Source: Janibacter sp. HTCC2649
Lineage (GTDB): Bacteria > Actinomycetota > Actinomycetes > Actinomycetales > Dermatophilaceae
Assembly (NCBI RefSeq): GCF_000152705.1
Contig: NZ_CH672413.1
Location: 3,503,046-3,567,045 of the forward strand
DNA length: 64,000 bases
Reading direction: 5' to 3'
This document shows, piece after piece, positions 291 through 64,000 of the stretch. A program made the position numbers and the translations under genes. Position 1 is the first letter of the stretch; the number at the start of each line of letters is the position of its first letter. Below the pieces are notes generated by a model that was not told the origin of the DNA, made no database searches, and saw only the letters and a list, made by a program, of their open reading frames with translations.

Positions 291-836
291 GTGTCGTACC
301 AGCCACCACTGCCGCCCGGCCCTGGCCACGATCCTGGGTACGGTCAGGGCCCCGGCCATGGACCCGGTCCACACGCCTACTACGGCCAGCCCACCCAAGG
401 TGCGCCGACTCCGTACGGCGCACACCCGGCATACCTCGGAATGCCTTCTCCCGCACCACGATCCGCAGGCATGAACCCGTGGGTCGCCGGACTCCTCGGC
501 GCGTTCGGCGGAGTGGTGCTGACCGTCATCGGCATGACCGTGATCCCGATGCTCCTGTTCGGCTTCCTGCTCAGCGGGCCGATGGGTGACGGCGGATTCA
601 TGGAGAGTTCTCCACAACGCGTGACGGTGGCCGCAGATGGCTCCGTCTCGGGGACGGCGCTCGCGGAGGCGCTGGAGAGCGGGTGGTACGAGGACATGAC
701 CTGCCCGAACACGGCGGAGGTCGCCACCGATGTCACGACGATCTGCGAGGGCAGCGACGGAGTGGACCCCATGCGGGTGGTCGTCGTGTTCCGCGGCACG
801 GACGGAAGGTTTGGCACTGCCGACCTCTTCGAGTGA
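291..836 (+). CDS. Membrane-anchored DUF4333-like protein with Pro/Gly/Tyr-rich N-terminus
   Basis: 181 aa. The GTG start at 291 is chosen because AAGGAG lies 7 bases before it; the same frame stays open further upstream but there it overlaps mazG with unnatural composition. Residues 1-58 are a Pro/Gly/Tyr/His-rich cytoplasmic tail, residues about 62-95 one long or two short membrane segments, and the remainder is an exported domain. That domain ends with MTCPNTAEV...TICEG...VVVVFRGTDGRF, a layout like the DUF4333 family (two Cys, short beta repeat). Role unknown. It stands alone between mazG and the psuK promoter. Confidence 0.7.
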   Translation: MSYQPPLPPGPGHDPGYGQGPGHGPGPHAYYGQPTQGAPTPYGAHPAYLGMPSPAPRSAGMNPWVAGLLGAFGGVVLTVIGMTVIPMLLFGFLLSGPMGDGGFMESSPQRVTVAADGSVSGTALAEALESGWYEDMTCPNTAEVATDVTTICEGSDGVDPMRVVVVFRGTDGRFGTADLFE

Positions 837-866
837 GCGCGCCCACCGGGGCAAAGGTCACGCTGC

Positions 867-897
867 TTGACTTAGAAATACAAGTGGTGCTTAACTT
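867..897 (+). promoter_or_regulatory. Promoter of psuK-psuG, apparently leaderless
   Basis: The region is AT-rich against its surroundings. TTGACT (867-872) can serve as -35 and TAACTT (892-897) as -10 with a 19-base spacer. The GTG start codon of psuK is exactly six bases after the -10 hexamer, so transcription would begin at or next to the start codon. No Shine-Dalgarno sequence precedes the gene. Confidence 0.55.
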
Positions 898-903
898 TAC
901 AAC

Positions 904-2049
904 GTGAAACTCACTCCCCAGGAACAGACGATCCTGCGCCTGCTCCGTTCGGACCCGCTGCTCGATGCAGCAGGTCTCGCGGACCGCGTCGGCACCACGA
1001 AGGCCTCGGTCTCGGTGGCGCTGTCCAACCTCACCCGCAAGGGCGCGATCCTCGGTCGCGGCTACCTCGTGCGCGGCGAAGCAGCGGTGGTCGTCGTGGG
1101 GGGAGCCATCATGGACGTCAAGGCCCGCTCGAGCGCACCGCTCGACTCCGCGACCAGCAACCCCGGTGAGGTCGCGACCGACCCCGGTGGCGTCGGCCGC
1201 AACATCGCCGAGAACCTCGCCCGCCTGGGCACTCCGACCCACCTCGTGGCCTCGGTCGGGAGCGACTCCTTCGGTGACGAGCTCCTCGCCCACACCCGAG
1301 GTGCCGGTGTCCAGCTGGACCACGTCGTCACCGGCAGCAGGCCCACGGGCACCTACCTCGCGGTCCTCGACCACGACGGTGACCTCTCGGTCGCGGTCTC
1401 CGACATGAGTGCCACCGATGCCCTCACCGTCGCCGACATCGAACCGGCTCGCTCACTCATCCAGAACTGCGACCTGCTCGTCGTCGACGGCAACATCCCG
1501 ATCGAGGTCGCGACCTGGCTCTGCGACATCGCCAACAGCGCGGACGTGCCCGTCGTCATCGAACCCGTGTCCGTCGTCAAGGCTCGCCGGTTGCGCCCCC
1601 TCCTTGCGCCCGATCGGCCCATCCTCGCCGTGACACCCAACATCGCCGAGCTCGCTGCCCTCGTCGGCCACGACGTCGCCGACACGATCCCCGAGATCAG
1701 CCGCGCGACCACCGAGCTGCATGCCCTCGGTGTGCGGCACGTGTGGGTGCGGCGCGGGGCCCGCGGCAGCCTCCTCTCTTCGGCCCCGGCCGACTCCGCT
1801 GACACCTCCCGGCCGACCGTCACCACGAACACCGCTGTCAGCGCCGAGGTCGTCGACGTCACCGGCGCCGGTGACTCGATGACCGCCGGGTTCGTCCACG
1901 CCCTGCTCCACGATGACGACGCCGTCGCCGCCGCAGCCTTCGGTCAGGCCACCGCCGCCCTGACCACCGAGTCCGCGCACACCGTGCGCCCCGACCTCAC
2001 CCACGCGCTCGTGACCGGGCGCCTCACCACCCAGCAAGGAACCTCATGA
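904..2049 (+). CDS. psuK: Pseudouridine kinase with N-terminal winged-helix domain (PfkB family)
   Basis: 381 aa. Residues 1-55 form a winged helix-turn-helix (LTPQEQTILRLLRSDPLLDA, then GTTKASVSVALSNLTRKG). Residues 58-375 are a PfkB sugar kinase: GGVGRNIAENLARLG near residue 97 is the substrate-side signature and DVTGAGDSMTAGF near residue 318 carries the catalytic Asp and anion hole. With the adjacent glycosidase gene, the substrate is most likely pseudouridine, phosphorylated to pseudouridine 5'-phosphate. The HTH suggests the protein may also control its own operon; the AT-rich promoter just upstream would be the place. Stop and psuG start overlap as ATGA. Confidence 0.88.
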   Translation: MKLTPQEQTILRLLRSDPLLDAAGLADRVGTTKASVSVALSNLTRKGAILGRGYLVRGEAAVVVVGGAIMDVKARSSAPLDSATSNPGEVATDPGGVGRNIAENLARLGTPTHLVASVGSDSFGDELLAHTRGAGVQLDHVVTGSRPTGTYLAVLDHDGDLSVAVSDMSATDALTVADIEPARSLIQNCDLLVVDGNIPIEVATWLCDIANSADVPVVIEPVSVVKARRLRPLLAPDRPILAVTPNIAELAALVGHDVADTIPEISRATTELHALGVRHVWVRRGARGSLLSSAPADSADTSRPTVTTNTAVSAEVVDVTGAGDSMTAGFVHALLHDDDAVAAAAFGQATAALTTESAHTVRPDLTHALVTGRLTTQQGTS

Positions 2050-3008: not shown

Positions 3009-4530
<1,522 letters not shown>

Positions 4531-5604: not shown

Positions 5605-6551
5605 CCCGCGTCGGCGCCATCGACTGCGGCACCAACTCGATCCGTCTGCTCATCGCTGACGTCGATCAGTTAGGTCGGCTGGTCGACGTCGTGCGTCGCA
5701 CGGAGGTGGTCCGGCTCGGCTACGGCGTGGACCGCACCGGGGTCATCGACCCGGTCGCCATGGAGCGCACTCTCGTCCAAACCCGTGAGTATGCCGCCCA
5801 GTGCCGTGAGCATGCCGTCGAACGTGTGCGCTTCGTCGCCACATCGGCCTCGCGCGACGCCAGCAACGCGGCTGAGTTCGTCCTTGGAGTCGAAAGCGCC
5901 TTTGCCGCAGCGGGATTCGACGTCTCGCCCGAGGTCGTGAGTGGCGAGGCCGAGGCAAACCTGTCCTTCACTGGTGCCACCGGCGACCTCGTCGCCGCCG
6001 ACATCCCCGGCCCCTATCTCGTCATCGACCTGGGTGGTGGTTCCACCGAGTTCGTGCGCGGGACCGGACAGGTCGAGAGTGCGCGGTCGGTCGACATCGG
6101 CTGCGTCCGGATCAGTGAGCGCCACCTCACGAGTGATCCTGCGACCGACGAGCAGATCGCCGCGGCCAGGGCCGACATCACCGCCGCCATCGATCGCGCC
6201 GAGGAGGTCGTCGACCTGTCCGGCATCGCCACGGTCGTCGGACTCGCCGGCAGCATCACGACGATCACGGCGCACGCACTGGGACTCACGGCATACGCAC
6301 CGGATCTCATCCACCTCGCACACCTCACGCCGGCAGCGCACCGTGAGTCAGCGCAGGGTCTCCTGCACGCGACAACCGAGGAGCGCGCCGAACTCGGCTA
6401 CATGCACCCGGGTCGCGTGGACGTCATCGGAGCAGGTGCGCTCGTGTGGCACGAGATCCTCGGGCGCGTGCTCGAGCGTTCGCCGGACGCGCAGGTCGTG
6501 ACGTCGGAGCACGACATCCTCGACGGGATCGCGCTCAGCTGCGCGGGCTGA
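5601..6551 (+). CDS. ppx: Exopolyphosphatase / pppGpp phosphohydrolase (Ppx/GppA family)
   Basis: 316 aa; GTG start overlapping the DUF501 stop. ASKHA-fold motifs are present: AIDCGTNSIRLLIADV at the N-terminus, ATSASRDASN, EVVSGEAEA and DLGGGSTEF near residue 143. The protein is the short actinobacterial form without the C-terminal HD domain, releasing phosphate from polyphosphate or (p)ppGpp. Leu24 is encoded by TTA (5670-5672), one of only three in-frame TTA codons I found in the window. The last 17 bases overlap the convergent tetR-type gene. Confidence 0.9.
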   Translation: MTRVGAIDCGTNSIRLLIADVDQLGRLVDVVRRTEVVRLGYGVDRTGVIDPVAMERTLVQTREYAAQCREHAVERVRFVATSASRDASNAAEFVLGVESAFAAAGFDVSPEVVSGEAEANLSFTGATGDLVAADIPGPYLVIDLGGGSTEFVRGTGQVESARSVDIGCVRISERHLTSDPATDEQIAAARADITAAIDRAEEVVDLSGIATVVGLAGSITTITAHALGLTAYAPDLIHLAHLTPAAHRESAQGLLHATTEERAELGYMHPGRVDVIGAGALVWHEILGRVLERSPDAQVVTSEHDILDGIALSCAG

Positions 6552-7787: not shown

Positions 7788-8857
7788 ACGACACCGTGGC
7801 GATGGAGGTTCGGGACTACGTCGTCGGCGTGCGAGCGGCCTTGGCGGACCTGCCGGCCGAGGACGTGGAAGAGTTCACGACCGGGATGGAGGCCGACCTT
7901 GCGGAGCGGTTGGCCGAGCCGGGCGAAGGCACCTTGCGTGACCGCCTGGGAGGACCGGATGTGTATGCCGCCGAGCTGCGTTCCGCTGCTGGCCTCCCTC
8001 CGCGCACAGCCCTGGTGCAGCCGAAGAAGCCTGTGGCGCAACGTGTTTCGGGACTCTGGTCCGATCTGAGCTCGAGCATGCTCACCGCCATGCCGTGGCT
8101 GAGCGACCTCCGCCCGGTCTGGTGGGCGGTGCGAGGCGCGTGCCTGGCCGTCTTACCTGCCCTAGTCCTTGGCGTCGGCCTCACGTGGCTAGCAATCTTC
8201 GGCGCTCTCGTCTCAGTGGTCGCCGGCTTGCTCGCCCGGCACGGGAGTCTGTCTGGTGGTTGGGTCCGCCCTGTCCGAGTAATCGGCAACGTCACTGCCG
8301 TGATTCTTCTACCGATTGCTTTCGTCATGTTCATTGATGGGCGGTACCCATCCGCCAACGACCAGATGTGGGCCGAACCGATGGCCTCGGCCGGACACGG
8401 TTTGCTGAACAACGGTGAGCAGGTGGCGAACCTCTACGCGTACGACTCGTCGGGACGGCGTATCGATGACGTGCGGCTCTTCGACCAGAACGGACGAGCC
8501 CTGGCAGTGGATGAAGGATCCATCCTCTACGGCCCGGTCGACCCGGTGGGAGCAGTGAATCCGCAGACGGGCGAGTTGATGGCGGACCTCGACGTCTTCC
8601 CACTGCGCTGGACCGGACACAAGGGCTGGCTCAAGTACAACGAGTGGGAGCCGCCGATGGCGATCACTCCGCTGCCCGGGCCGGTGCCGACCGTCGACGC
8701 CAGTCCGTCACCCACGGTGACGGCCACCCCCAACCCCGGGGCGAGCGTCAGTCCATCGCCGAGCGCCTCACCGAAGGTTTCACCGACGTCGCCGAGCTCA
8801 GGGGTCTCGGCGACTCCCACCCCGACGCCCAGCGCGAGCCCGAGCGCGTCGAGGTGA
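7784..8857 (+). CDS. HAAS-domain membrane protein with Ser/Pro/Thr-rich tail
   Basis: 357 aa. Residues about 5-70 form a HAAS signalling domain (VRDYVVGVRAALADLPAEDV, TLRDRLGGPDVYAAELRSAA). Three hydrophobic helices follow (about 120-160 and 180-197), then an outer domain of some 110 residues and a 50-residue tail of repeated [11 protein letters not shown] units, as in wall-associated proteins. Start chosen at the ATG overlapping the padR stop. Codon use is less strict than that of neighbours: it carries a TTA (8153-8155) and CTA Leu codons. Function beyond the PadR partnership is unknown. Confidence 0.8.
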   Translation: MNDTVAMEVRDYVVGVRAALADLPAEDVEEFTTGMEADLAERLAEPGEGTLRDRLGGPDVYAAELRSAAGLPPRTALVQPKKPVAQRVSGLWSDLSSSMLTAMPWLSDLRPVWWAVRGACLAVLPALVLGVGLTWLAIFGALVSVVAGLLARHGSLSGGWVRPVRVIGNVTAVILLPIAFVMFIDGRYPSANDQMWAEPMASAGHGLLNNGEQVANLYAYDSSGRRIDDVRLFDQNGRALAVDEGSILYGPVDPVGAVNPQTGELMADLDVFPLRWTGHKGWLKYNEWEPPMAITPLPGPVPTVDASPSPTVTATPNPGASVSPSPSASPKVSPTSPSSGVSATPTPTPSASPSASR

Positions 8858-8911: not shown

Positions 8912-8943
8912 CGGGCGGCATACGCAGGCTTTATGGTGAGTGC

Positions 8944-9775: not shown

Positions 9776-10633
9776 ATGGCCAGCAATCCGGCCTTCAACC
9801 GACTCGAGAAGGACGCCCAGTCCGGTTATGCCGGGTTCCAGGGGGACGGCGCCCGCGCGAACCCCGGCAACAACGTCTCCTACGCCCAGCAGGGCGCAGC
9901 CCACTCGATGAACCCGCAGCAGCTCCAGGACATGTACAACGCGCCCACCGCGGGCCCGACCGACACCGGTCGCGTGACGATGGACGACGTCATCATGAAG
10001 ACGATGGGCCTGTTCGCCCTCGTCCTCGGCTTCGGTGCCGTCGGCTGGATCGTTGCCTCACAGAACCAGCAACTGGGCTTCATGCTCCTCATGGGCGGGA
10101 TGATCGGCACGCTCGTGCTCGGTCTCGTCATCGCCTTCAAGAAGACCCTGAGCGTTCCGCTCATTGTCGGGTATGCCGTCCTTGAGGGTTTGTTCGTCGG
10201 TGCCGTCAGCCAGGTCTTCGAGAAGCTGTACGACGGCGTCGTCCCCATGGCCGCCATGGCGACCGTTGGCGTGTTCGTGGGCATGTTCCTGGCCTACAAG
10301 AGTGGCCTCATCAAGGTCACGGACAAGTTCCGTCGCATCGTGACGATGATGATCTTTGGCTACGCGATCTTCGCGGTCATCAACTTCATCTTTGCGATGG
10401 TGACGAACACGCCGTTCGGCATCGGTGGCAACGGGATGTTCGGCATCGCGATCTCGGTCTTCGCCGTCGGCCTGGCCTCGGTCTCGCTGGCTCTCGACTT
10501 CGACATGATCGAACGCGCCATCGCGACCGGTGCTCCTCAGAAGTACAGCTGGCTCCTCGCGCACGGCCTCATCGTGACCGTGGTCTGGCTCTACATCGAG
10601 TTCCTGCGTCTGTTCGCCCGCATGCGCGACTGA
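9776..10633 (+). CDS. Bax inhibitor-1/YccA family membrane protein
   Basis: 285 aa; ATG at 9776 preceded by CGGAGG at a five-base gap. About 85 polar N-terminal residues precede seven hydrophobic helices (MGLFALVLGFGAVGWIVAS through LLAHGLIVTVVWLYIEFLRLFA). The final helices carry the acidic residues typical of the Bax inhibitor fold. The actinobacterial branch (YccA/YbhL-like) is of unknown role, possibly an ion leak. A small gene follows two bases after the stop. Confidence 0.88.
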   Translation: MASNPAFNRLEKDAQSGYAGFQGDGARANPGNNVSYAQQGAAHSMNPQQLQDMYNAPTAGPTDTGRVTMDDVIMKTMGLFALVLGFGAVGWIVASQNQQLGFMLLMGGMIGTLVLGLVIAFKKTLSVPLIVGYAVLEGLFVGAVSQVFEKLYDGVVPMAAMATVGVFVGMFLAYKSGLIKVTDKFRRIVTMMIFGYAIFAVINFIFAMVTNTPFGIGGNGMFGIAISVFAVGLASVSLALDFDMIERAIATGAPQKYSWLLAHGLIVTVVWLYIEFLRLFARMRD

Positions 10634-10905: not shown

Positions 10906-11940
10906 GGTTGTCGCCTCGTCCGGCGCGTCGGCCTGGGGGTCGCGCGCCTCCGGCACGGGGTCGTGACGACGTCGCAGCAGCACGGCCCACCGTCCGCGGG
11001 GTCCGCGAGCCTGGCCGCCGACCTCGGTCGGGGACACCTCGGACCCGGCATCCTTGACGGCCTGACCGGCAGCCACCGCAACGGGTCCAACACCCTCGCC
11101 GCGTCGCGCCTCGGGCGGGCGATCGGCCGTGTCGTGGCCCCACACGCCGAGCGCCGCGCACACCGACGGCAGCAGCGCAGCCGCGGCCCGGGCATATCCG
11201 GCAGCGGACGGGTGGAAGCGGTCCTCGCTGAACATCGTCTTGGGAGACGCGGCGAACTCCTTGCCGAGCAGGTCGCCCAAAGACACGGTGCGACCGCCGG
11301 CCTCGACGACCGCGATCGTCTGGGCGGCGGCGAGGTCGCGACTCCACCGACGGGCGAGCAGGCGCAACGGTTGGGCCAGGGGCTCGATCGTGCCGAGGTC
11401 GGGGCAGGTCCCGACGACGACCTCGCTGCCCAGGGCGCGGATGCGGCGCACGGTCAGCTCGAGGTGGCGCACGGCCGTGGCGCGGTCGACGCGGTGGGTC
11501 ACGTCGTTGGCGCCGATCATGATGACGACGACGTCGGGGGTCACCGACTCCAGCCCCTCGGCGAGCTGGCGCTGCAGGTCGCTCGACTCGGCGCCGACGA
11601 CCGCGGTGTTCGTGAGGTGGACGCTGCGCCCCATGAGGGCACTCACACCGCCGGCGACGATGGCGCCGACGGTCTCGGACGGGCGGTGCGCGCCCATGCC
11701 TGCCGCACTCGAGTCGCCGATGACGAGGATCTCGATGGGTTCACCCGGACCGGCGCCGTAGGTGCCGTTGTCGTCGGGGGAGGAGTCGAAGGGCGTGCCC
11801 ACGAGCCGGCGCGCGAGCAGCGCTTCACCCTTGATGACGCCGTAGCTCACCGCGCCCAGCGCAGCACTCGCCGCGGCCAGGCCGCCACCCCCGTATGCCG
11901 CAGTCGATGCGATCTTGCGTGCCCGTCGTGCGCGTCCCAT
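10846..11940 (-). CDS. SGNH/GDSL-type esterase, membrane-anchored
   Basis: 364 aa. A basic start and a hydrophobic stretch (GGGGLAAASAALGAVSYGVI) suggest an anchor or uncleaved signal. SGNH blocks follow: VIGDSSAAGMGAH (nucleophile Ser), IMIGANDVTH (block III Asn) and DRFHPSAAGYARAA (catalytic Asp and His). The final 100 residues are polar and low-complexity. It sits beside cbs, as its mycobacterial counterpart does. GAGGAG lies about 12 bases before the ATG and TAGCGT (minus strand, near 11970) may be the -10. The 3' end overlaps a convergent small gene by 60 bases. Confidence 0.87.
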   Translation of the reverse strand: MGRARRARKIASTAAYGGGGLAAASAALGAVSYGVIKGEALLARRLVGTPFDSSPDDNGTYGAGPGEPIEILVIGDSSAAGMGAHRPSETVGAIVAGGVSALMGRSVHLTNTAVVGAESSDLQRQLAEGLESVTPDVVVIMIGANDVTHRVDRATAVRHLELTVRRIRALGSEVVVGTCPDLGTIEPLAQPLRLLARRWSRDLAAAQTIAVVEAGGRTVSLGDLLGKEFAASPKTMFSEDRFHPSAAGYARAAAALLPSVCAALGVWGHDTADRPPEARRGEGVGPVAVAAGQAVKDAGSEVSPTEVGGQARGPRGRWAVLLRRRHDPVPEARDPQADAPDEATTSGKTAAEVGESVGEVGNAS

Positions 11941-12067
11941 GCTGTTGCCGACCTCCTCGATCTCTCGACCACGCTAACGCCAGGCAAGGACACGAGTGTT
12001 CCCACCCGGCATACCGGCAATATTTGCGGCGTCCCGAGGTCCGCGTGCGAGATGGGAGAATGGGCCC

Positions 12068-13444
<1,377 letters not shown>

Positions 13445-13597: not shown

Positions 13598-13621
13598 GTT
13601 GCGTTCCGAGACGACAAACAC

Positions 13622-13662
13622 GGCGGCGTATGCCGGGAGCTAGCTTCCCGGCATACGCCGCC
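13622..13662 (+). terminator. 17-base perfect hairpin, family A (octamer pair)
   Basis: Arms 13622-13638 and 13646-13662 pair perfectly around GCTAGCT; each arm contains GTATGCCG or its complement (13628 and 13649). It stands only 24 bases behind the preceding 21-base hairpin, so the gap holds two strong stems in tandem. Confidence 0.75.
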
Positions 13663-13696
13663 TTCGTGTGTGGGGCAGGCATTTCTGGTTACCCCT

Positions 13697-13761: not shown

Positions 13762-15189
13762 ATGGCGGCAAACGCGACCGTTCCCATCGGCTCGACCGAT
13801 GAGTGGAAAGACCCGAAGCGGTATCTGTGGCTCATCGGACTCGTGGTGCCGTCGCTGGCCCCGATCGGCCTGGGCATGTGGCTGCTCACGGACTGGTCGG
13901 CGTGGTTCTGGCTCGGGCCGATCGTCATCCTGGTCGTCGTGCCGGCCATCGACCTCGTCGCCGGACTGGACCGCTCGAACCCGCCTGACGACCTCATTGA
14001 GGCGCTCGAGAAGGACAGGTACTACCGGTGGATCACCTACCTGTACCTGCCGATCCAGTACGGCGGGTTCATCGGTGCCATGTGGATCGTTTCGGGGGCG
14101 AGTCCCTGGGAGCTGTCGCTCGTCGAGAAGATCGGCCTCGCGATCTCGATCGGGTGCATCGGTGGCATCGGCATCAACACGGCGCACGAGCTCGGTCACA
14201 AGCGTGAGGAGAACGAGCGCTGGCTGAGCAAGGTGGCGCTGGCGCAGAGCTTCTACGGCCACTTCTACATCGAGCACAACCGCGGCCACCACGTGCGCGT
14301 CGCCACGCCCGAGGACCCGGCGTCGAGTCGGGTGGGCGAGAACTTCTACCAGTTCTGGCCGCGCACGGTGTGGGGCTCGCTCAAGAGTGCGTGGCGGCTG
14401 GAGAAGCGACGGATCGGTCGGCGCAAGCAGCACCCGTTCCGCCTGTCCAACGACGTCCTCAACGCCTGGCTCATGTCTGCGGTGCTGTGGGGTGCGCTCA
14501 TGGCGTGGCTCGGCGTGGGGATCCTGCCGTATCTGCTCATCCAGGCGGTCATCGGTTTCTCACTGCTCGAGGTCGTCAACTACATGGAGCACTACGGGAT
14601 GCTGCGCCAGAAGGTCGGCCACGGCGACCGGCAGCGCTACGAGAGGGTCGACCCGTCGCACTCGTGGAACTCCAACAACGTCGCGACCAACGTCCTGCTC
14701 TATCACCTGCAGCGGCACAGCGACCACCACGCGAACCCCACCCGCCGCTATCAGACCTTGCGCGACTTCGAGGAGTCGCCGGCACTGCCCACCGGGTATG
14801 CCGGGATGATCGTTCTCGCGCTGGTCCCGGCGATCTGGCGTCGGGTCATGGACCCGCGGGTGCTGCGTCACTTCGATGGCGACCTGAGCCGAGCCAACTT
14901 GTCTCCGCGCAAGCGAGAGAAGCTGCTCGCAGCTCATCCGGTGCCGGTTGCGCCGGGTCGTGCCGGTGCCCGGGTCGATGGTGCGGCTGGTGGCAACGTC
15001 CTGGTGGATGAGGTTCTCGCGGCGCGCTGCCCGGGCTGTGGCTACACCTATGACGTGGTCGCGGGGGAGGAGCGAGAGGGCTTCGCCGCCGGGACCTCGT
15101 GGGGGCAGATCCCCGATGACTGGTGCTGCCCCGACTGCGGCGTTCGGGAGAAGGTCGACTTCGTGGTGGTGGAGCCGCGCGCGGCATGA
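13762..15189 (+). CDS. alkB: Alkane 1-monooxygenase fused to rubredoxin
   Basis: 475 aa. Integral-membrane non-haem di-iron hydroxylase that oxidises the terminal methyl of alkanes. Six hydrophobic helices alternate with the His boxes HELGHK (from residue 142), HNRGHH (172), the HYG motif in NYMEHYGMLRQ and LQRHSDHHANPTRRYQ. Residues about 418-470 are a complete rubredoxin (CPGCGYTYD ... IPDDWCCPDCG), so the electron carrier is built in, an arrangement known from actinobacterial AlkB/AlkW enzymes. ATG at 13762 has AAGGAGG seven bases before it. Overlaps the tetR-type gene by four bases. Confidence 0.95.
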   Translation: MAANATVPIGSTDEWKDPKRYLWLIGLVVPSLAPIGLGMWLLTDWSAWFWLGPIVILVVVPAIDLVAGLDRSNPPDDLIEALEKDRYYRWITYLYLPIQYGGFIGAMWIVSGASPWELSLVEKIGLAISIGCIGGIGINTAHELGHKREENERWLSKVALAQSFYGHFYIEHNRGHHVRVATPEDPASSRVGENFYQFWPRTVWGSLKSAWRLEKRRIGRRKQHPFRLSNDVLNAWLMSAVLWGALMAWLGVGILPYLLIQAVIGFSLLEVVNYMEHYGMLRQKVGHGDRQRYERVDPSHSWNSNNVATNVLLYHLQRHSDHHANPTRRYQTLRDFEESPALPTGYAGMIVLALVPAIWRRVMDPRVLRHFDGDLSRANLSPRKREKLLAAHPVPVAPGRAGARVDGAAGGNVLVDEVLAARCPGCGYTYDVVAGEEREGFAAGTSWGQIPDDWCCPDCGVREKVDFVVVEPRAA

Positions 15190-15906: not shown

Positions 15907-17973
<2,067 letters not shown>

Positions 17974-24477: not shown

Positions 24478-24498
24478 AGTGACGCCGACCACGCGGCA

Positions 24499-42002: not shown

Positions 42003-42086
42003 TGTGGCGCACATGCGGGGTGAGCGGACGGCATACGCCGTCGTCGGCGCGCGACGCGGTGGTTCGGGAGACGCGATCCGAGCCAT

Positions 42087-42092: not shown

Positions 42093-42099
42093 TGCGGCC

Positions 42100-49363: not shown

Positions 49364-49839
49364 CCGCCGAGGTGGTGACGGGACTGCGCGAACTCGCGTG
49401 GACCGACATCCCGGGCCTCGTGGCACTCGAGGGCGAAGCGTTCCCCGACGACGCGTGGGCCGAGGCCTCGTGGTGGGGCGAGCTGGCCGGTAGGCCTCGC
49501 CGCGACTACGTGGTCGTGCACCGCGAAGGTGAGCTGGCGGCATACGCCGGTCTTGATCACGGCGGCCAGGTCGCCGACCTCATGACGATCACCGTCGCGC
49601 CCCGACACCGCGGAACGGGTCTGGGCGTCCAGCTCCTCGACGAGCTCGAGTCGCGGGCGACGACGGCCGGGGCTGAAGCCCTGATGCTCGAGGTGCGAGC
49701 CGACAACGCACCGGCGCGTGCGCTCTACGACCGACGTGGCTATGACGTGCTCACTGTGCGTCGCGCCTACTACCAACCCGGCAACGTCGATGCCTTGGTC
49801 ATGCGAAAAATGTTGGCACAGAACGGAATTGAGTCATGA
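49360..49839 (+). CDS. rimI: Ribosomal protein S18-alanine N-acetyltransferase
   Basis: 159 aa GNAT protein: [40 protein letters not shown] (acetyl-CoA loop) and [20 protein letters not shown], with [13 protein letters not shown] at the end, all typical of RimI. It acetylates the N-terminus of S18. Fits between tsaB and tsaD. Confidence 0.93.
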
Positions 49840-50897: not shown

Positions 50898-52196
50898 TCA
50901 CTTGCAGGTGACGAGGCCCATGCGTTCCTTGAGGGCGATGACGCGCAGCACCGAGGACTCGAGCTGGGTGGCGAAGGCCTCGTCGGCGCGCGCCTTGTCC
51001 GCGAGCGCCCTGGCCATCGTCGGCACCGACTTCGGGTCGCCGGTGAGGAGGATGTCGCCGCCGGCCGAGATGTAGTCCACGGCACGCTTCGCTGCGGGGA
51101 TCGAGCGCACCGACTTGGCGTTGATGTCATCGGTGATGACGACGCCCTCGAAGCCGAGCTTGCCGCGGAGGAGGGTGGTGATGATCGGCTTGCTGAACAT
51201 CGCCTGCGTCTTCGTGGCGTCGAGCCCCGGGTAGCGAGCCGAGCTCACCATGACGAGCCCGGCACCCGCCTTGACCCCGGCGGTGAACGGCGCGAGGAAG
51301 GGGTCCTTGGGCGTCGCCACGGTGTCGGTGATGCCGGTCGTGTTGAAGTCGGTGTTCTTCTGGACGCGCCCCAGCCCGGGGAAGTGCTTGACCGTGCCCA
51401 TCACACCACCTTCGATCATTCCCTTGAGGAACGCGGTCGAGGCCTTGGTGACCGTTGCGGGCGTCGAGCCGTACTGACGGCCGTACTTGCCGATCGGCTC
51501 GTTGGCGGTGCCGATGTCGGCGGGCACCGTGTCCGTGACCGGGGCGAGGTTGACGTTGATCCCCACGGCCTTGAGCTCGCCGGCCCAGACCTTGGCGGCG
51601 GCGGTGAGCTGCGAGGGGGACATCTGCGCCTGGACCTTGGCCGAGGGCACCTTGGAGAAGCCTTCGCCGCGCAACTGCCGCACCTCGCCGCCTTCCTGGT
51701 CGGCGGCGAGAAGCAGGGGTATGCCGGCCGTCGCCGCAGTCGTGGCCTGCGCCTGGAGGTGTGAGCTGGTCTGCTTGACCCGGGCCGCGCCGTCCCAGCC
51801 GCCGAGGTAGATGACGTTGCCGACGTGCTGGTCGGCGATGAGCCCGTCCAGTGCGGTGCGGGATGCCGAGGTGTCGAACGCGACCATGAAGAGCTGCCCC
51901 AGGGACTGCTCCTCCGTGAGTGCGTCGGCCTTGCTGCGGGCGCAGGCGCTGACGTTCGCCGGTTCGCCCGTCGCGGGCCCAGACGCAGAGGTGCTCGCGC
52001 TCGCCGAGGGGGATGGCGTGGGAGACGCGCTGCTTGGTGTGGTGTCCGTTGCCGATCCCGTGCCTGCAGGGCTGCTGGAGGTGTTGCTGTCCGGGGTGTC
52101 GCCTCCACCGCAGCCTGCGGCGAGGACGCCCGCGAGGGCGATCGCGACGGTGGCGGTGAGGCGGCGGCGGGCAGAGGTCGTGGAGCGGGAAGTCAC
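50898..52196 (-). CDS. Glycoside hydrolase family 3 lipoprotein (NagZ-like)
   Basis: 432 aa. Lipobox LAGVLAAGC (Cys about residue 29) after a basic start, then an 80-residue Ser/Thr/Pro linker. GH3 domain: EQSLGQLFMVAFD, LLLAADQEGGEVRQL, GTVKHFPGLGRVQ with the Lys-His pair, and the nucleophile Asp in VVITDDINAKSV. Probably trims N-acetylglucosaminyl units of wall or glycan at the outer face. GTG start, with TAGCGT six bases before it on the minus strand and no ribosome site. Confidence 0.9.
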   Translation of the reverse strand: MTSRSTTSARRRLTATVAIALAGVLAAGCGGGDTPDSNTSSSPAGTGSATDTTPSSASPTPSPSASASTSASGPATGEPANVSACARSKADALTEEQSLGQLFMVAFDTSASRTALDGLIADQHVGNVIYLGGWDGAARVKQTSSHLQAQATTAATAGIPLLLAADQEGGEVRQLRGEGFSKVPSAKVQAQMSPSQLTAAAKVWAGELKAVGINVNLAPVTDTVPADIGTANEPIGKYGRQYGSTPATVTKASTAFLKGMIEGGVMGTVKHFPGLGRVQKNTDFNTTGITDTVATPKDPFLAPFTAGVKAGAGLVMVSSARYPGLDATKTQAMFSKPIITTLLRGKLGFEGVVITDDINAKSVRSIPAAKRAVDYISAGGDILLTGDPKSVPTMARALADKARADEAFATQLESSVLRVIALKERMGLVTCK

Positions 52197-52202: not shown

Positions 52203-52228
52203 ACGCTAGCCGACGCACGGCATACGCT
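52203..52228. promoter_or_regulatory. Head-to-head leaderless promoters
   Basis: On the minus strand TAGCGT (complement of 52203-52208) lies six bases before the GTG of the GH3 gene; on the plus strand TACGCT (52223-52228) lies six bases before the ATG of the nucleoside hydrolase gene. The intergenic gap is 38 bases, so each -35 region falls near or on the other's -10. An octamer copy (52218-52225) overlaps the plus-strand box. Confidence 0.5.
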
Positions 52229-53209: not shown

Positions 53210-54039
53210 TGGGCCGCGTCATGGTCCTCGGGTCGCTCAACGTCGACCTCGTCACCCGCGTCGAACGCCACCCCAGCCCCGGCGAGACGCTCCTGGGTGA
53301 AGGGCTGGACCGACTGGCCGGTGGCAAGGGCGCCAACCAGGCCGTCGCAGCTGCAGCCGCCGGTGCCGAGGTGCTCATGGTCGGGTGCGTCGGAGACGAC
53401 GGCGGAGGAGCGGCCTATCTCGAACGCCTGCGCGACAGGGGAATCGACGTGTCCCGCGTCCGCACTGTCGCGGGCGAGGCCAGCGGTCACGCCCTCATCG
53501 CCGTCGACGACCGAGGCGAGAACAGCATCATCGTCATCCCCGGCGCCAACGGCCTCCTTGACGCCACCGAGATCGCCGCGGTCGACGCTCTCGGCCCCGG
53601 TGACGTGCTCCTCCTGCAGCTCGAAGTACCGCTCCCGGTGGTCTGTGCCGCCGCCCGGCGGGCGGCGCACGTCGGTGCCCGAGTCGTCATCAACACCGCA
53701 CCGTATGCCGCCCTCCCGGCCGATGTGATCGCGCTCGGCGACCCGGTGGTCGCCAATGAGCACGAGATGGTGGCCCTTGCCGAGTCCGGCGCCGAACCCG
53801 CCTCACTGCTCGTGACCTTCGGCGCCAACGGCGTCACCTGGGACGGCGAGACCGTCCCGGCACACCGGGTGGATCACTTGGCAGTGCGCGACACCACAGG
53901 GGCGGGAGATGCCTTCTGCGGCGCCCTGGCCGCAGCCCTCGCCACCGGAGCCGACCGCGCCGGAGCCCTCGAGGCAGCCTTGTCAGCGGGAGCCGCCGCA
54001 GTCCAGCATGTCGGCGCTCAGCCCGACCCCGCCCTCTGA
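53209..54039 (+). CDS. rbsK: Ribokinase
   Basis: 276 aa, PfkB family. VLGSLNVDLVTRVERHPSPGET, GGKGANQAVAAAAAG and DTTGAGDAFCGALAAAL with the catalytic Asp. The C-terminus is slightly short compared with the usual 300. ATG shares a base with the hydrolase stop. Converts ribose to ribose 5-phosphate. Confidence 0.9.
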   Translation: MGRVMVLGSLNVDLVTRVERHPSPGETLLGEGLDRLAGGKGANQAVAAAAAGAEVLMVGCVGDDGGGAAYLERLRDRGIDVSRVRTVAGEASGHALIAVDDRGENSIIVIPGANGLLDATEIAAVDALGPGDVLLLQLEVPLPVVCAAARRAAHVGARVVINTAPYAALPADVIALGDPVVANEHEMVALAESGAEPASLLVTFGANGVTWDGETVPAHRVDHLAVRDTTGAGDAFCGALAAALATGADRAGALEAALSAGAAAVQHVGAQPDPAL

Positions 54040-54102: not shown

Positions 54103-55341
54103 TTAGGCGGGGGAGACGATGAGGGCCGTGGGGGCTCCGCCGACGCGCGTGAGCACGACCGTGGCCTGCTCGCCGCTGCCGGCCTTGGTCCCGATCTTGA
54201 GGTCGCGGCGCAGCTGCTCGTCGTCGAGGCGGATCCCGCGCTTCTTGATCGTCAGGCCGGTGACGCCGTGTTCGCGAAGCCAACCACGCAGGCTCTTGAC
54301 GGTGAATGGCATCGCCTCGTGGACGGCATACCGGCGCGTGTAGGACAACGACACGTTGCGTGAGGTGAGGACGTAGCCGGTGCCCTCGTCGGACTCCATG
54401 CCTTCGGTGCTGCGGGTGACGGCGCCGACGAGTCCGGCTCGGATGACCGCCTTGTCGACGTCGTGGAGCCAGGTGCCCACGTCGACCAAGGACGCAGCCG
54501 TCGGTGGCACGGGGTCAGCCATGGACTCGGTGACCACGGACGGTGACGAGTCCGGGCCCATGACTCGCGCGGTGCGACCACGGGCCATGACGAGGGGTCC
54601 CCACCAGATGGCGCACTCGACGACGTCGCCGGCCCACGAGGTCCACTGGGCCTCGGTGCCGTTGGGGATCGCGGCGTGGTCGAAGCCGGGGCTGAGCTTG
54701 ACCCCCGTCGCGGGCACGACTGCGGCGACCTGCTGCACGTAGTCCCAGGACGGCGAGATCTCTTCGAGGCGGAAGGTGCGGCGGGTGCGACCGGTGATGT
54801 CGGCGACGCCGCGGGTGCGACGGGCCGGGTCGAGCCAGGCACCCACCCGGTTGCGTCCCGGGTCGAAGCCGAAGTCGGCGTCCTCGGCGTGGCCTACGCG
54901 GGCGCGCGAGTCCGGCCACGGCCGCAGGTTGGCGTCGGCAACGGCGGCCGTCACGGGGTCGGAGTCGACGGCGCGCACGGTGACGCCGAGCGAGGACAGG
55001 GTCACGGCGTCGGCCCCGATGCCACAACCCAGGTCATGGACCTGCGCCAGACTCGCCCGACTGAACCGATGGGCGTGAGCGACGGCGACCTCCAGGCGGG
55101 TCGCCTGCTCGAGCCCGTCAGGGGTGAAGAGCATGTCCGCAGCGAACTCGCCGAACTTGGCCGTGGCCCTCGCGCGCAGCCGTTGTTGGGTCAGCGCAGC
55201 AGCCGTGAGGTCCGAGGAGTGTCCGGCACGGCGGAGGCGGTCGTGGAGCGTGAGGACGTCGGAGTCGCTGTAGGGCGGGAGGGAACGCAAGAGCTCCTGC
55301 CCCTCAGGGGCAGCAAGGGCCCTCACCGTGCTCACGTCCAC
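54103..55341 (-). CDS. Class I methyltransferase with THUMP-like C-terminal domain
   Basis: 412 aa. Residues about 85-200: SAM-binding core (VHDLGCGIGADAVTLSSLGV, VRAVDSDPVTAAVADANL, WLDPARRTRG). Residues 330-412: THUMP-like domain (SLRGWLREHGVTGLTIKKRG, LDDEQLRRDLKI). A nucleic-acid substrate is likely but unknown. GTG start with GAGAAGG upstream. Near tsaD-groES in many actinobacteria. Confidence 0.85.
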   Translation of the reverse strand: MDVSTVRALAAPEGQELLRSLPPYSDSDVLTLHDRLRRAGHSSDLTAAALTQQRLRARATAKFGEFAADMLFTPDGLEQATRLEVAVAHAHRFSRASLAQVHDLGCGIGADAVTLSSLGVTVRAVDSDPVTAAVADANLRPWPDSRARVGHAEDADFGFDPGRNRVGAWLDPARRTRGVADITGRTRRTFRLEEISPSWDYVQQVAAVVPATGVKLSPGFDHAAIPNGTEAQWTSWAGDVVECAIWWGPLVMARGRTARVMGPDSSPSVVTESMADPVPPTAASLVDVGTWLHDVDKAVIRAGLVGAVTRSTEGMESDEGTGYVLTSRNVSLSYTRRYAVHEAMPFTVKSLRGWLREHGVTGLTIKKRGIRLDDEQLRRDLKIGTKAGSGEQATVVLTRVGGAPTALIVSPA

Positions 55342-55426: not shown

Positions 55427-57532
55427 TCAGCTCCCGAAGGTCAGGGTCGACCAACCGGAACCGATCTTGAGACGGGTTGCGAAGCCACCAGTGCCCGTGC
55501 CGCGGTAGGCCCACAGGGCCCCGGCCGAGTCCTTGGCGACGAGGTCGACGGCGCCGTCTCCGTCGACGTCACCGAGGCCGGTGAAGCCCGAGTAGGTGGC
55601 GAAGCCGCTGCCGATCGTCTTGGCCCCGAGGTAGGCGCCGGTCTTCGAGAACCGCAGGAGGAACAGCGCGCCCGCGTCGCTCTTGGCCATGAGGTCGGTC
55701 CCGCCGTCACCGTCGAAGTCGCCGATGGCCTCGAGCTCGCGCAACCCGCCCCAGCCGGCGCCCTTGCTCACGCGCGACTTCCAGGACCCGGTCCCGGTGC
55801 TGGGGTAGAGCCACAAGGTGCCGGTCGCGTCGCGGCCGAGGAGGTCGACGTTGCCGTCGCCATCGAGGTCGCCGGGCGCGATGACCGCGGTGAAGCTCTG
55901 CCATCCCGAACCGACGGTCGAGCTGGAGGCGATCGTGCCCGTACCCGTCCCGCGGTCGAGCGTCAGCGTTCCGGTCGTGGATCGGCGCAGGAGGTCGGGT
56001 ATACCGTCACCCGAGAAGTCTCCCGGCGCCAGGATCTCCGGCACGGCGGGGTGGCCCGACGTGATCGGGGTGCGTGCGAGCCAGCCACCGCGACCGTCGG
56101 TCGGGTAGTTCCACAGGACCCCTGAGGAGTCACGGGCGATGAGGTCCGAGAACGCGTTGCTGGCGAAGTCGGTGCCGACCGACGAGCCCAGCGGGATGAG
56201 ATAGGTGGACCGCAGGTTGAGCCTGGTGCGGAAGGTCTCGGCACCAACAGCCACGGAGGTCGCCGTGCCGTTGAGGACGATGGTGTCGGCCCGCCCGCCG
56301 AAGAAGGCGCCCTTGCCGTCGCGACCGATGCTCATCGAGACGAACTGTCCGATCGATGACCAGTTGTCCGTGATGGCACTGACCGGCATCGTCAGGTAGG
56401 TCCACGTGTCGGGGGCATCGACGAACACCCCGTCGTAGGGGTCGGCCTTGGCCACCTGGTAGGCCACACCGGAGCCCACGATCTGACCACCGTTGGTCGA
56501 GCTGAACTCGGTGTTGGCGATAGTGGTGCCGTACTTGCGGATCTGGCCCGAGGTCCCGGCCACGGCCGCGTCGGAGTTCGGGTGCTCGGGGTTGGCGCTC
56601 GTCAGGCCGGGGTACACCTGGCAGGACGTCGTGTCACAGATGTCAGAGGTGTAGGGACTGCCCAGTCGCGCTGCGGCATACGTCCGCGCAGCGACGGCCT
56701 GGGCCTTGACTGCCTCGAGGCCCCATGATGCCGGCATCTCTGCGGGGACGACCGACCGGAGGTAGCTGTCCATGAGGACGACGTTGATGGTGGCGGTGAA
56801 CCCGACGAGGCCGGGTCGGTTGTCCTGCGCCGCGCGGATCCCGCCGCGGTACTGGCGCTTGCCCGACGGCGTCCTCACGCTGAGGACGGAGGAACCGATG
56901 GAGCCGTCACCGACGAAGGTGAGGTCCGCGGCCGTGCCGAAGCCCGGGCACGTCGTCGGGTAGTTCCACCACCCGACGAACCCGTTGACGTTGGGGTAGT
57001 AGCTCTGGACGTTCCACTTCCCACCGCTGAGGGGTTGGACTCGCCATTCCGTGGCGCCCGGCTGCGTCAGCGCCGCCGTGCAGGTGCCGTCGGTGAGGGT
57101 GAGGCCGGCTTCGTCGTAGACCGAGGTGGCTGAGGTGCCCAGTGCACTGAGGCGAACGCGCACCTGCGGGTTGCCAATGCTGGCGGAGGTCGTCCCCGGG
57201 TAGTAGAAGTCGAGGATCTGCGCGACTGTCCTGCCCTGACTGGCGGCGCCGCGCGCCCCCCACTGCGACATTCCTCGCCCATGCCCGAAGCCGCGCCCGC
57301 TTAGCCCGATGACCGGCCCCGTGCTTGCCGCCGCCGTCTTGCCTCCCGCCTCAGGCGTCGCGTCCTCGGCGACGCGTTGGGTGGCCAACGTGTCCGCGGC
57401 CGGCTTCGCCGCGGTGGTCGAAGCCACCGGCGCGGTCGTGCCTCGCGGGGCAGCGGACGAGGCGTTCGCAACAACGGTCATCGGTGCGGCAAGGAGGACC
57501 GCGGCAGCCGCGATCGAGGTCAGACGGTTCAT
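55427..57532 (-). CDS. Secreted SpoIID/LytB-domain protein with FG-GAP-like repeats
   Basis: 701 aa. Signal peptide (MNRLTSIAAAAVLLAAPMTV). SpoIID/LytB domain, about residues 75-440: RGFGHGRGMSQWGARGAA, YYPGTTSASIGN, YLRSVVPAEMPASWGLEAVK and AARTYAAARL. The C-terminal 230 residues hold four FG-GAP/VCBS repeats (GDFSGDGIPDLL, GDLDGDGNVDLLGR, GDFDGDGGTDLMAK, GDVDGDGAVDLVAK), calcium-binding beta-propeller blades. Likely acts on, or sits in, the cell wall. Start at the signal-peptide Met; ribosome site weak. Confidence 0.88.
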   Translation of the reverse strand: MNRLTSIAAAAVLLAAPMTVVANASSAAPRGTTAPVASTTAAKPAADTLATQRVAEDATPEAGGKTAAASTGPVIGLSGRGFGHGRGMSQWGARGAASQGRTVAQILDFYYPGTTSASIGNPQVRVRLSALGTSATSVYDEAGLTLTDGTCTAALTQPGATEWRVQPLSGGKWNVQSYYPNVNGFVGWWNYPTTCPGFGTAADLTFVGDGSIGSSVLSVRTPSGKRQYRGGIRAAQDNRPGLVGFTATINVVLMDSYLRSVVPAEMPASWGLEAVKAQAVAARTYAAARLGSPYTSDICDTTSCQVYPGLTSANPEHPNSDAAVAGTSGQIRKYGTTIANTEFSSTNGGQIVGSGVAYQVAKADPYDGVFVDAPDTWTYLTMPVSAITDNWSSIGQFVSMSIGRDGKGAFFGGRADTIVLNGTATSVAVGAETFRTRLNLRSTYLIPLGSSVGTDFASNAFSDLIARDSSGVLWNYPTDGRGGWLARTPITSGHPAVPEILAPGDFSGDGIPDLLRRSTTGTLTLDRGTGTGTIASSSTVGSGWQSFTAVIAPGDLDGDGNVDLLGRDATGTLWLYPSTGTGSWKSRVSKGAGWGGLRELEAIGDFDGDGGTDLMAKSDAGALFLLRFSKTGAYLGAKTIGSGFATYSGFTGLGDVDGDGAVDLVAKDSAGALWAYRGTGTGGFATRLKIGSGWSTLTFGS

Positions 57533-59032: not shown

Positions 59033-59076
59033 CGTATGCCGTGGGCTCACCTCCCATGGTGCGCTCACGGCATACG
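59033..59076 (+). terminator. Hairpin, family A (octamer pair), between groES and groEL
   Basis: CGTATGCCGTG (59033-59043) pairs with CACGGCATACG (59066-59076). It could stop part of the groES transcript. Confidence 0.65.
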
Positions 59077-60820: not shown

Positions 60821-60873
60821 AAACGCGTATGCCGCGTGCTCCCGTACAGGGGGAGCACGCGGCATACGCGTTT
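60821..60873 (+). terminator. 23-base perfect hairpin behind groEL (twin copy 1)
   Basis: Arms 60821-60843 and 60851-60873, loop GTACAGG, octamers at 60827 and 60860. The inner 49 bases recur exactly at 62670-62718. Base pairs outside the shared core are A-T here, and end in TTT. Confidence 0.85.
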
Positions 60874-62608: not shown

Positions 62609-62666
62609 CGAAGGGCATGGTCCGCCGACCGCCGTGGTGGTGACGCGCGCGTCGGTCGTGCACGCC

Positions 62667-62721
62667 GAGACGCGTATGCCGCGTGCTCCCGTACAGGGGG
62701 AGCACGCGGCATACGCGTCTC
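62667..62721 (+). terminator. 24-base perfect hairpin (twin copy 2)
   Basis: Arms 62667-62690 and 62698-62721, loop GTACAGG. Core identical to copy 1 at 60821; outermost pairs are G-C/A-T changed together on both sides (GAG/CTC instead of AA/TT). Lies between the response regulator and the convergent secreted-protein gene. Confidence 0.85.
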
Positions 62722-62740
62722 TCAGGGCGTGCCCGTGGGC

Positions 62741-64000
62741 TCAGGTGACGTTGACCGTCACCGTCGCCACCGTGTCGTTGCGACTGTCGCCCACGAGGAC
62801 ACGCACCGTGTGGGCCCCGGCTGTCGCCCAGGTGTGCGAACCCTTGAGCGTGGCGGTGCCGTCGGAGGCCACCGTGATGGTCGCGTCCGTCGTCGGGCTG
62901 CCGTCGCCCCAGGCGACGCGAGCGGTGTAGCCGCCCTCGGCGGGGACCCCACCGTTGGCGGTCCCGAGCGTCACGGTGGAGGCGACGCCGGCCTTGGCGG
63001 TCGCGCCCGATGCCGGCGTCACCGTCAGGGGAGTCCCGTTGTCGGCCACCGAGAAGATGTGGATCCGACCGTTGGCATGCGGGTCTCCGGTCTGCGTCGG
63101 CAGGGTCACCGAGGCCACCGTCTTGCCAGCGGGGATGGTGAGCGGTGCGGTCGCGAACAGCTTGAGGTGGCAGCCGTCCGTGCCCGTGCCGTTGAGGCGT
63201 GAGGTCATCTCCACCGCGAGGATGTTGGTGAACTTCACGTCGCCGCACCAGTCGCCGTACTGGATCTTGTATGCCGTGCTCGTCCCGTCCGTGTAGGTCA
63301 CCGTGCCAGTGGTGTCCTGGTCCTTCTGGGTCGCCGTGCCGATGAGGCTCAGCTTCGTGGCGCCCGGCGCGAGGGTGACGGGCAGGGTCTGCCCAGCGCC
63401 GGTGGCGTTGTCGTTCTCACCGGCCGGGATCGCCGGCATGGCGAACTTCAGGTCCGTCCCGGGGACGGTGATCAGCTTGCCGGGGGAGGCGCCGGCTTCG
63501 GCCAGCGCCGGGCGTGAGACGCCGGCCTGGTCACCGTCGCAGACGCTCTGCTCTCCGGGGTCGCCGATGCAGACGAGGTCGAACCCGGAGGCGTACGACG
63601 GTACGACGGCCTGGTGCACCGTCACGGAGCCGACGGCGCTCGCCTCACCCTTGGGGTCCTTGACGGTGAGCACCGTCTCGTAGACGCCGGGGTCGGCCCA
63701 CGTGTGGCTGCCCTTGACGCTGTAGGACCCGAGGTCGCCCGCGGTGATCGTGCCGGCCGACGACGTGCCGTCGCCCCACGCGATGGTGGCGGTGTAGTCG
63801 CCCACGGCCGAACCCTTGCCGCCCGAGAAGGTGCCGATGGCCCCGCTGATGGAGGTGCCTTCGATGCCCTCGAGGGTGCTGGACGCGCTCACCTTGAGCC
63901 CGGTGTTCTGGGCGTGTGAACCGTCCGTGAGGAACTCGATCTCGGACAGGGTCGGCGTCCCGGTGCTCGCCGTGACGACGAGCCGGTAGGCCGTGTACGT
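62741..64000 (-). CDS. Secreted multidomain protein, C-terminal part (start outside window)
   Basis: At least 419 codons; open to the window edge (RLVVTASTGTPTLSEIEF near 63960). Two PKD-like modules: YTATIAWGDGTSSAGTI with GSHTWADPGVYETVLTV, and YTARVAWGDGSPTTDATI with GSHTWATAGAHTVRVLV. Between them a carbohydrate-binding-like region (LSLIGTATQKDQDTTGTVTY, YGDWCGDVKFTNIL, PLTIPAGKTVASVTLP) as seen at the C-termini of GH92 and other actinobacterial glycosidases. A secreted glycoside hydrolase is likely; the catalytic part is not in the window. Confidence 0.7.
   Translation of the reverse strand, partial: TYTAYRLVVTASTGTPTLSEIEFLTDGSHAQNTGLKVSASSTLEGIEGTSISGAIGTFSGGKGSAVGDYTATIAWGDGTSSAGTITAGDLGSYSVKGSHTWADPGVYETVLTVKDPKGEASAVGSVTVHQAVVPSYASGFDLVCIGDPGEQSVCDGDQAGVSRPALAEAGASPGKLITVPGTDLKFAMPAIPAGENDNATGAGQTLPVTLAPGATKLSLIGTATQKDQDTTGTVTYTDGTSTAYKIQYGDWCGDVKFTNILAVEMTSRLNGTGTDGCHLKLFATAPLTIPAGKTVASVTLPTQTGDPHANGRIHIFSVADNGTPLTVTPASGATAKAGVASTVTLGTANGGVPAEGGYTARVAWGDGSPTTDATITVASDGTATLKGSHTWATAGAHTVRVLVGDSRNDTVATVTVNVT

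Follow-up and report, generated by a model that had tools for sequence, protein, structure and literature searches.

A highly iterated octamer of Knoellia and much of the Dermatophilaceae / Intrasporangiaceae that resembles a DNA uptake sequence

The window analyzed in this study is a stretch of 64,000 nucleotides from the genome of Janibacter sp. HTCC2649 (contig NZ_CH672413.1, positions 3,503,046 to 3,567,045), a Knoellia genome designated G000 in our dataset, and its most conspicuous feature is a single octamer, GTATGCCG, read as CGGCATAC on the opposite strand, which we consider here as a candidate tag for the uptake of DNA. Exact matching located 52 copies, 26 forward and 26 reverse, in full agreement with the 52 starts counted by hand in an earlier note on this DNA, with none missing and none extra. 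According to gene calls made with our own codon-usage script (no published gene finder was used), 34 of these copies are genic, and the remaining 18 are intergenic or sit at a gene boundary.

The genic copies are dispersed along the whole window and occur on both strands (the strand of each copy is given in parentheses). Among genes encoded on the forward strand, the gene at 5601-6551 contains copies at 5789..5796 (+) and 6289..6296 (-), followed by single copies at 7963..7970 (+) in gene 7784-8857, 10171..10178 (+) in gene 9671-10633, 12073..12080 (+) in gene 12068-13444 and 14796..14803 (+) in gene 13762-15189. Gene 15940-17973 carries two, at 16755..16762 (+) and 17874..17881 (-), gene 20661-21185 one at 20842..20849 (-), and gene 23473-24477 two at 23855..23862 (-) and 23954..23961 (-). 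Three copies each are found in gene 25702-27027, at 25855..25862 (+), 26652..26659 (+) and 26945..26952 (-), in gene 33169-34521, at 33342..33349 (+), 34064..34071 (-) and 34185..34192 (+), and in gene 44338-45828, at 44367..44374 (+), 44529..44536 (+) and 45786..45793 (-). Further copies are located at 35565..35572 (-) in gene 35474-36301, 37493..37500 (+) in gene 36600-37955, 42029..42036 (-) and 43032..43039 (+) in gene 41821-43959, 46495..46502 (-) and 46888..46895 (+) in gene 45875-47050, 49081..49088 (+) in gene 48701-49363, 49538..49545 (-) in gene 49360-49839 and 53703..53710 (+) in gene 53209-54039. The genes encoded on the reverse strand contain copies at 11893..11900 (+) in gene 10846-11940, 51719..51726 (+) in gene 50898-52196, 54324..54331 (-) in gene 54103-55341, 56674..56681 (-) in gene 55427-57637 and 63269..63276 (+) in gene 62741-64000.

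Between genes, single copies are present at 8916..8923 (-), 12007..12014 (-), 24494..24501 (-) and 52218..52225 (-), together with one at 427..434 (-), which is intergenic or at a gene edge, and one at 41442..41449 (-), which our own gene calls place, with some uncertainty, outside genes. Ten more copies form the arms of five inverted pairs that fold as long hairpins, with energies from -34.9 to -55.6 kcal/mol and z-scores from -6.8 to -9.5, each sitting 31-183 bases 3' of a stop codon. Three of them are terminator-like hairpins behind genes: 13618..13669 (arms 13628..13635 (+) and 13649..13656 (-); -42.0 kcal/mol, z -8.70), 37979..38030 (arms 37987..37994 (+) and 38014..38021 (-); -39.3 kcal/mol, z -9.35) and 59033..59076 (arms 59034..59041 (+) and 59068..59075 (-); -34.9 kcal/mol, z -6.82). 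The other two are located between convergent genes, at 60821..60873 (arms 60827..60834 (+) and 60860..60867 (-); -49.1 kcal/mol, z -9.15) and 62667..62721 (arms 62674..62681 (+) and 62707..62714 (-); -55.6 kcal/mol, z -9.45). The earlier note had listed six such hairpin pairs behind genes, and both fold and placement bear out five of them. The sixth, formed by the intergenic copies at 3011..3018 (-) and 3142..3149 (+) and listed as 3009/3140, did not hold: its copies point outward, are 131 bases apart and, unlike the others, form no terminator-like hairpin. We also observed that the two hairpins between convergent genes share an identical block of 49 bases (60823-60871 and 62670-62718, 1,847 bases apart), which is likely the product of a recent copying event.

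The abundance of the octamer greatly exceeds what the composition of the DNA predicts. For both strands of the window, the expected number of copies is 0.93 under an order-1 Markov model and 1.22 under an order-2 model, which is lower than the value of about 2 given in the earlier note; the strong over-representation claimed there is borne out. When the 8-mers of the window are ranked by order-1 z-score, GTATGCCG comes first (52 against 0.93); under order-2 scoring it is surpassed by a few single A/T-rich words with near-zero expectation, and by raw count it ranks fifth, behind CG-rich words. Over the whole genome of G000 (4,235,068 bases), we counted 2,982 copies, 1,486 forward and 1,496 reverse, equivalent to about 0.7 per kb or one per ~1,420 bases. 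As a control we used the octamer written backwards, which has nearly all dinucleotides in common with it, and this reversed pattern occurs only 59 times (35 + 24).

The shape and placement of the motif were characterized in a 364 kb core sample of G000, consisting of the window and 15 further stretches, from which five stretches at 140-240 kb were excluded, as a motif-poor island described below lies in them. Within the 365 genes of this sample, 214 copies are genic, compared with 17.4 on average and at most 30 in 100 synonymous shuffles, and the intergenic density of 1.9 per kb (68 copies in 35.7 kb) is threefold the genic density of 0.65 per kb; the outcome that the earlier note named as refuting its reading, counts close to codon-pair usage with no excess between genes, was not obtained. 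Genic copies make use of all six reading positions, and 169 of the 214 encode Tyr-Ala or Ala-Tyr, as the earlier note had remarked of many copies in the window. The octamer is sharply bounded, without a cloud of one-mismatch variants: in G000 these number 232 against 210 for the reversed controls, where the exact motif gives 282 against 2, and in other Knoellia they number 155 against 192, where the exact motif gives 229 against 3. Beyond the eight letters we found weak flank preferences, clearest in the 68 intergenic copies, for A at -7, G at -1, G at +10, G at +12, T at +14, C at +15 and T at +19; in other Knoellia, T is favoured at +9 (58% vs a background of 15%). 

Inverted pairs are more frequent than random placement would produce. 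Neighbouring copies no more than 50 bases apart form 19 pairs, of which 12 are forward-reverse, 6 reverse-forward and 1 direct, and the Poisson expectation is 10.7 such pairs, half of them inverted; the observed 18 inverted pairs out of 19 correspond to a P value of 8e-5. Intergenic copies are densest behind genes, yet they are found elsewhere between genes too: where neighbouring genes converge the density is 2.5 per kb, where they are codirectional 1.6 and 3.0 per kb, and where they diverge 1.2 per kb.

Along the chromosome, the two strands are used equally (chi2 8.5 with 18 degrees of freedom over 18 stretches of contig C1 of G000), and the strand totals of 100,849 and 101,150 in 106 motif-rich genomes of the family, defined below, agree with this, so that the strand bias which the earlier note had proposed looking for was seen neither in these stretches nor in these genomes. 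A strand-biased site is accordingly not supported by the balance of the G000 stretches, which was assessed without a located origin. Counts per 20 kb over the same 18 stretches vary less than a Poisson process would give (variance/mean 0.35, P 0.006), and nearest spacings between copies show no departure from an exponential distribution (P 0.24). The distribution is interrupted at C1:149,900-237,630 (88 kb; loci L001-L005), where only 6 copies are present and 68 are expected. Seven proteins of this island were scanned against Pfam, giving matches to a tyrosine integrase, a TrwC relaxase, a TraG-type coupling protein, an IS110 transposase, a Mu/IS21-like transposase and a metal P-type ATPase, with one of the seven unmatched. 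Because of the integrase, relaxase, coupling protein and transposase matches, we interpret this region as a likely integrated conjugative element. In G+C content it resembles the rest of G000. It is the one island examined, and we drew its borders from gene content after the gap had been noticed.

Sites are also conserved between species. In eight other Knoellia species, compared across the aligned parts of two loci at 76-84% identity, sites of G000 are retained exactly in 118 of 160 comparisons, and comparison octamers with three A/T letters are kept in 20-36%. Rare codons follow the same pattern, with TAT kept in 32 of 35 cases inside the motif and 42 of 112 outside it (Fisher P ~1e-8), and GCA in 34 of 45 inside and 100 of 477 outside (Fisher P ~2e-13), P values that should be read as indicative, since the same G000 sites are reused for each relative and the relatives share history. 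Between genera, the comparison covers one region, the 20 kb com locus, at 69.5-74% identity: there, nine motif-rich genomes retain the motif in 27 of 57 site comparisons, against 0 of 36 for eight motif-poor genomes. The motif-rich Humibacillus keeps 0 of 3 at this locus, and G020, a genome with a variant word that was counted apart, keeps 2 of 10.

To describe the spread of the octamer, we refer to a genome as motif-rich when it holds at least 400 copies of GTATGCCG. Within the family Dermatophilaceae / Intrasporangiaceae, represented by 186 genomes from 53 genera, 106 genomes reach this level, 14 hold 150-399 copies and 66 hold fewer. A motif-rich member is present in 30 genera, including all nine of the nine Knoellia genomes, and three of the 30 (g25, g52, g68) also contain members at background level. 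The ratio to the reversed control in the motif-rich genomes has a median of 11.9 and a lowest value of 2.5. It should be noted that the control is itself raised in some of these genomes (G023, G087, G088, G091 and others), perhaps because the extended motif there is GCCGTATGCCG; their ratios would then be too low. Among the genomes that carry a name, those of Phycicoccus elongatus, Humibacillus xanthopallidus and Ornithinimicrobium sp. CNJ-824 are motif-rich; background level was found for Dermacoccus abyssi, Intrasporangium flavum, an uncultured Phycicoccus and the 11 genomes of other families counted with them. In an even sample of the phylum (396 genomes), the motif-rich genomes are G000, G200 and G089, all of this family, whose fourth member in the sample, G017, is not motif-rich; no genome of another family in that sample reaches 400 copies, the nearest being G281 by count (386 vs a control of 176) and G503 by ratio (161 vs 30).

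Relatives carry variant words, which in some genera replace GTATGCCG partly or wholly, each variant being known from one or two genomes in a genus. In G020, 3,135 copies of GAATGCCG (control 27) are present alongside 1,025 of GTATGCCG, and the same variant accompanies the main word in G117 (730, control 22) and G119 (388, control 5). A second variant, GGATGCCG, occurs 122 times in 120 kb of G033 (expected 9), a sequence with no GTATGCCG; its genic copies number 89 against 16.3 in shuffled genes, and its density is 3.1 per kb between genes and 0.81 within them. In G024, GGATGCCG gives 36 genic copies against 8.1 shuffled. This variant stands on weaker ground because the word is also in excess in the motif-poor genome G009 and because in many genomes GVATGCCG outnumbers its reversed control two- to threefold; G033 is the good case, and G024 is weakened most. 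In family f19 of the same order, probably the Microbacteriaceae to judge by its size and its very small genomes, the related word CGGATGCCNCG of 11 letters occurs 2,287 times against 11 across G055 and exceeds 1,000 copies in 4 of 199 genomes, with strong differences between genera; the shuffle test in this family covered G055, where 53 copies are genic against 4.2 shuffled, without intergenic excess. Other dialects were not found in the motif-poor genera sampled by G009, G010, G017, G018, G022, G030, G031, G143 and G166, where 20-74 kb were searched in each and a sparse tag could be missed, and G041, which had been flagged beforehand, showed no such word in 60 kb. A repeat of a different kind was observed in G090, a genome at background for GTATGCCG among motif-rich congeners: about 30 bases long and dispersed, it surrounds GTGAATCCGCG (loci L186, L187), with 8 of 9 copies alike.

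Genes that could serve DNA uptake are present in G000, where ComEA, with HhH and SLBB domains, adjoins ComEC, and where we found a Tad locus of the DUF4244/Flp type, a TadF of the tad-1 type and a further Tad locus, of the CpaB type and identified by eye, that encodes two Flp pilins. In Knoellia, pilus genes of three Tad/Flp-type kinds appear to coexist (G000 L034, L035 and C1:1367808-1368260; G003 L037). Matches to T2SSE ATPases in the nine Knoellia genomes reach 1e-45 to 1e-65 at best, with none in the 1e-120 class that we take for type IVa PilB. DUF4244 is matched in 172 of the 186 family genomes, and no difference in the length or domains of ComEA between motif-rich and motif-poor genomes was seen by eye. 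The competence and pilus genes that the earlier note had suggested looking for are there, but those searched do not track the motif, since motif-poor relatives possess them as well. ComEC, T2SSE ATPases, TadF and DUF4244 were each considered as a presence-or-absence switch, and none of them separates motif-rich from motif-poor genomes; the evidence from the machinery is permissive only.

Taken together, copy number, use of both strands, intergenic excess, inverted pairs, depletion in the conjugative element, conservation and variant words support the comparison with DNA uptake sequences made in the earlier note, and we consider it likely, judging from genome sequences, that GTATGCCG serves Knoellia and much of the Dermatophilaceae / Intrasporangiaceae as a self tag resembling a DNA uptake sequence. 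In such a system, a receptor for DNA at the cell surface would bind the motif and favour the uptake of DNA from kin; this receptor would most likely belong to a Tad/Flp pilus or to the uptake route formed by ComEA and ComEC. Recombination of the imported kin DNA would then spread and restore copies of the motif, and the inverted pairs, judging from their place and fold, may act secondarily as terminators.

Several observations weigh against this reading. Data on DNA uptake or transformation in Knoellia were not found in the literature, and neither G000 nor other Knoellia show an excess of one-mismatch variants, some of which would perhaps persist if mutation and import were in slow balance. 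While G000 and G033 show a strong intergenic excess, that of G024 is slight (0.95 vs 0.66 per kb, 5 copies), as is that of GAATGCCG in G020 (0.84 vs 0.66 per kb, 7 copies), and it is reversed for GTATGCCG in G020 (intergenic 0.24 vs genic 0.41 per kb, 2 copies) and for the related word of G055 (0.56 vs 0.63 per kb). Moreover, GGATGCCG is found in genes of the motif-poor G009 21 times against 7.5 shuffled. Regarding the machinery, ComEC is present in each of the 27 genomes searched from other genera of the family, motif-poor ones included, TadF in 19 of 23 motif-poor genomes searched (the copy of G150 has an internal stop), and ComEA and DUF4244 Flp pilins also occur in motif-poor genomes. Conversely, DUF4244 is unmatched in 14 of the 186 family genomes, seven of which are motif-rich (G088, G095, G118, G121, G154, G203 and G224, all but G088 less than 90% complete), and the tad-1-type TadF is matched weakly in the motif-rich G004 and G008 and unmatched in the motif-bearing G033, a single contig.

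These observations have to be set beside what other processes would produce. An internal site for self-recognition or control of recombination, comparable to Chi and recognized by a defence system or a nuclease-helicase, would equally be enriched in the core chromosome and depleted in the conjugative element, and the retention of the searched uptake genes by motif-poor relatives would fit it. Chi and the FtsK-orienting sites (KOPS) are, however, biased to one strand relative to replication, and here the strands are balanced over the 18 stretches of C1; inverted pairs behind genes are not known as a feature of Chi either, and we regard a site of this type as unlikely. The sharp octamer without one-mismatch excess, its strong conservation at homologous sites, the genic copies in all six reading positions and the words of G020, G024 and G055 without clear intergenic excess could instead reflect repair or methylation acting on the octamer, as for the HIP1 word, with no role in DNA transfer. 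Such a process is difficult to reconcile with a word that is not a palindrome and that changes between genera, with the threefold intergenic excess and inverted pairs of G000, and with a conjugative element of the same cell that is nearly devoid of the motif, and it seems to us quite unlikely.

The even spacing of copies at the 20 kb scale (variance/mean 0.35 in the 18 stretches) is what a binding site for a nucleoid or chromosome-organising protein, distributed across the core chromosome, might generate, but nearest spacings fit an exponential, inverted pairs behind genes would be left unexplained, and a motif that some members of a genus carry while others are at background (g25, g52, g68) would be odd for a basic chromosome function, which makes this explanation improbable to a high degree. 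Least credible of all is an origin in chance, in a mobile repeat dispersed over the genome, or in a bias of codon pairs or dicodons. The predominance of Tyr-Ala and Ala-Tyr among genic copies does point to a coding bias, but this was rejected, together with chance, on the synonymous shuffle and the higher intergenic density; a longer dispersed or mobile repeat was rejected as well, given that conservation is limited to the octamer and that beyond it the flanks show weak preferences alone.

If the self-tag reading of GTATGCCG is right, the system could be wider than one family. It may be, at slightly less than even odds in our view, that we are dealing with a third independent lineage of DNA uptake sequences, present in at least two actinobacterial families, with dialects built on an ATGCC core (GTATGCCG, GAATGCCG, GGATGCCG and the f19 word CGGATGCCNCG), read by a Tad/Flp-pilus or ComEA-type receptor and setting the partners of DNA exchange. 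This extension is less probable because GGATGCCG is mildly in excess in a motif-poor genome and the f19 word lacks an intergenic excess. To our knowledge, these would be the first DNA uptake sequences in Gram-positive bacteria. An independent actinobacterial case, if true, would mean that genome-wide self tags have evolved repeatedly, natural transformation would be predicted in the 30 genera of the family with motif-rich genomes, and motif-rich and motif-poor species within one genus would provide natural contrasts for finding the receptor.

In the literature, a 2025 article names Neisseriaceae and Pasteurellaceae as the sole families known to select DNA at the surface by short motifs (PMC12616744), and a 2023 article states that no uptake sequence has been reported for mycobacteria (PMC10526031). 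Among the titles and abstract openings listed by our literature search, none dealt with uptake sequences in Actinobacteria, with most subscription journals outside its reach, so absence in print is not proved; when the octamer was used as a text query, the titles among the matches listed looked unrelated.

Among known systems, the octamer can be compared with the DNA uptake sequences (DUS) of Neisseriaceae, which come in dialects read by the minor pilin ComP: both occur in copy numbers from hundreds to thousands, form inverted pairs in terminator positions, are sparse in integrative conjugative elements (ICEs) and vary between genera. It differs from them in being found in an actinobacterium, and no match of the type IVa PilB class was found in the nine Knoellia genomes. 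Six letters, ATGCCG, are common to GTATGCCG and the 12-letter DUS of the meningococcus, an overlap that is probably due to chance. PMC6370729 gives GCCGTCTGAA, part of the meningococcal DUS, and PMC7371117 reports one DUS per ~400-1,100 bases, denser than the one per ~1,420 bases of GTATGCCG, and a fall of this density in neisserial ICEs. With the uptake signal sequence (USS) of Pasteurellaceae, in a different phylum, the octamer has in common the character of a genome-wide self tag and a sharp core with weak flank preferences, some for A or T; the motif itself is another one. PMC12616744 gives the cores as 5'-CTG-3' for DUS and 5'-GCGG-3' for USS, and GTATGCCG contains neither on either strand, so that the tag belongs to neither the neisserial nor the pasteurellacean family of sequences. 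Among Gram-positive organisms, Micrococcus luteus, which is transformed by means of a Tad/Flp pilus and ComEA/ComEC, resembles Knoellia, where ComEA and ComEC are likewise encoded along with both kinds of Tad/Flp genes; PMC6370729 and PMC4322843 report comEA and comEC in M. luteus and both tad clusters as needed for transformation, and in the two M. luteus papers searched for them, PMC4322843 and PMC12849477, terms for uptake sequences are absent. Finally, the octamer is like the cyanobacterial HIP1 in being highly iterated, mostly genic and kept at homologous sites; HIP1 is a palindrome, which GTATGCCG is not, and we know of neither inverted terminator pairs nor such variants for HIP1.

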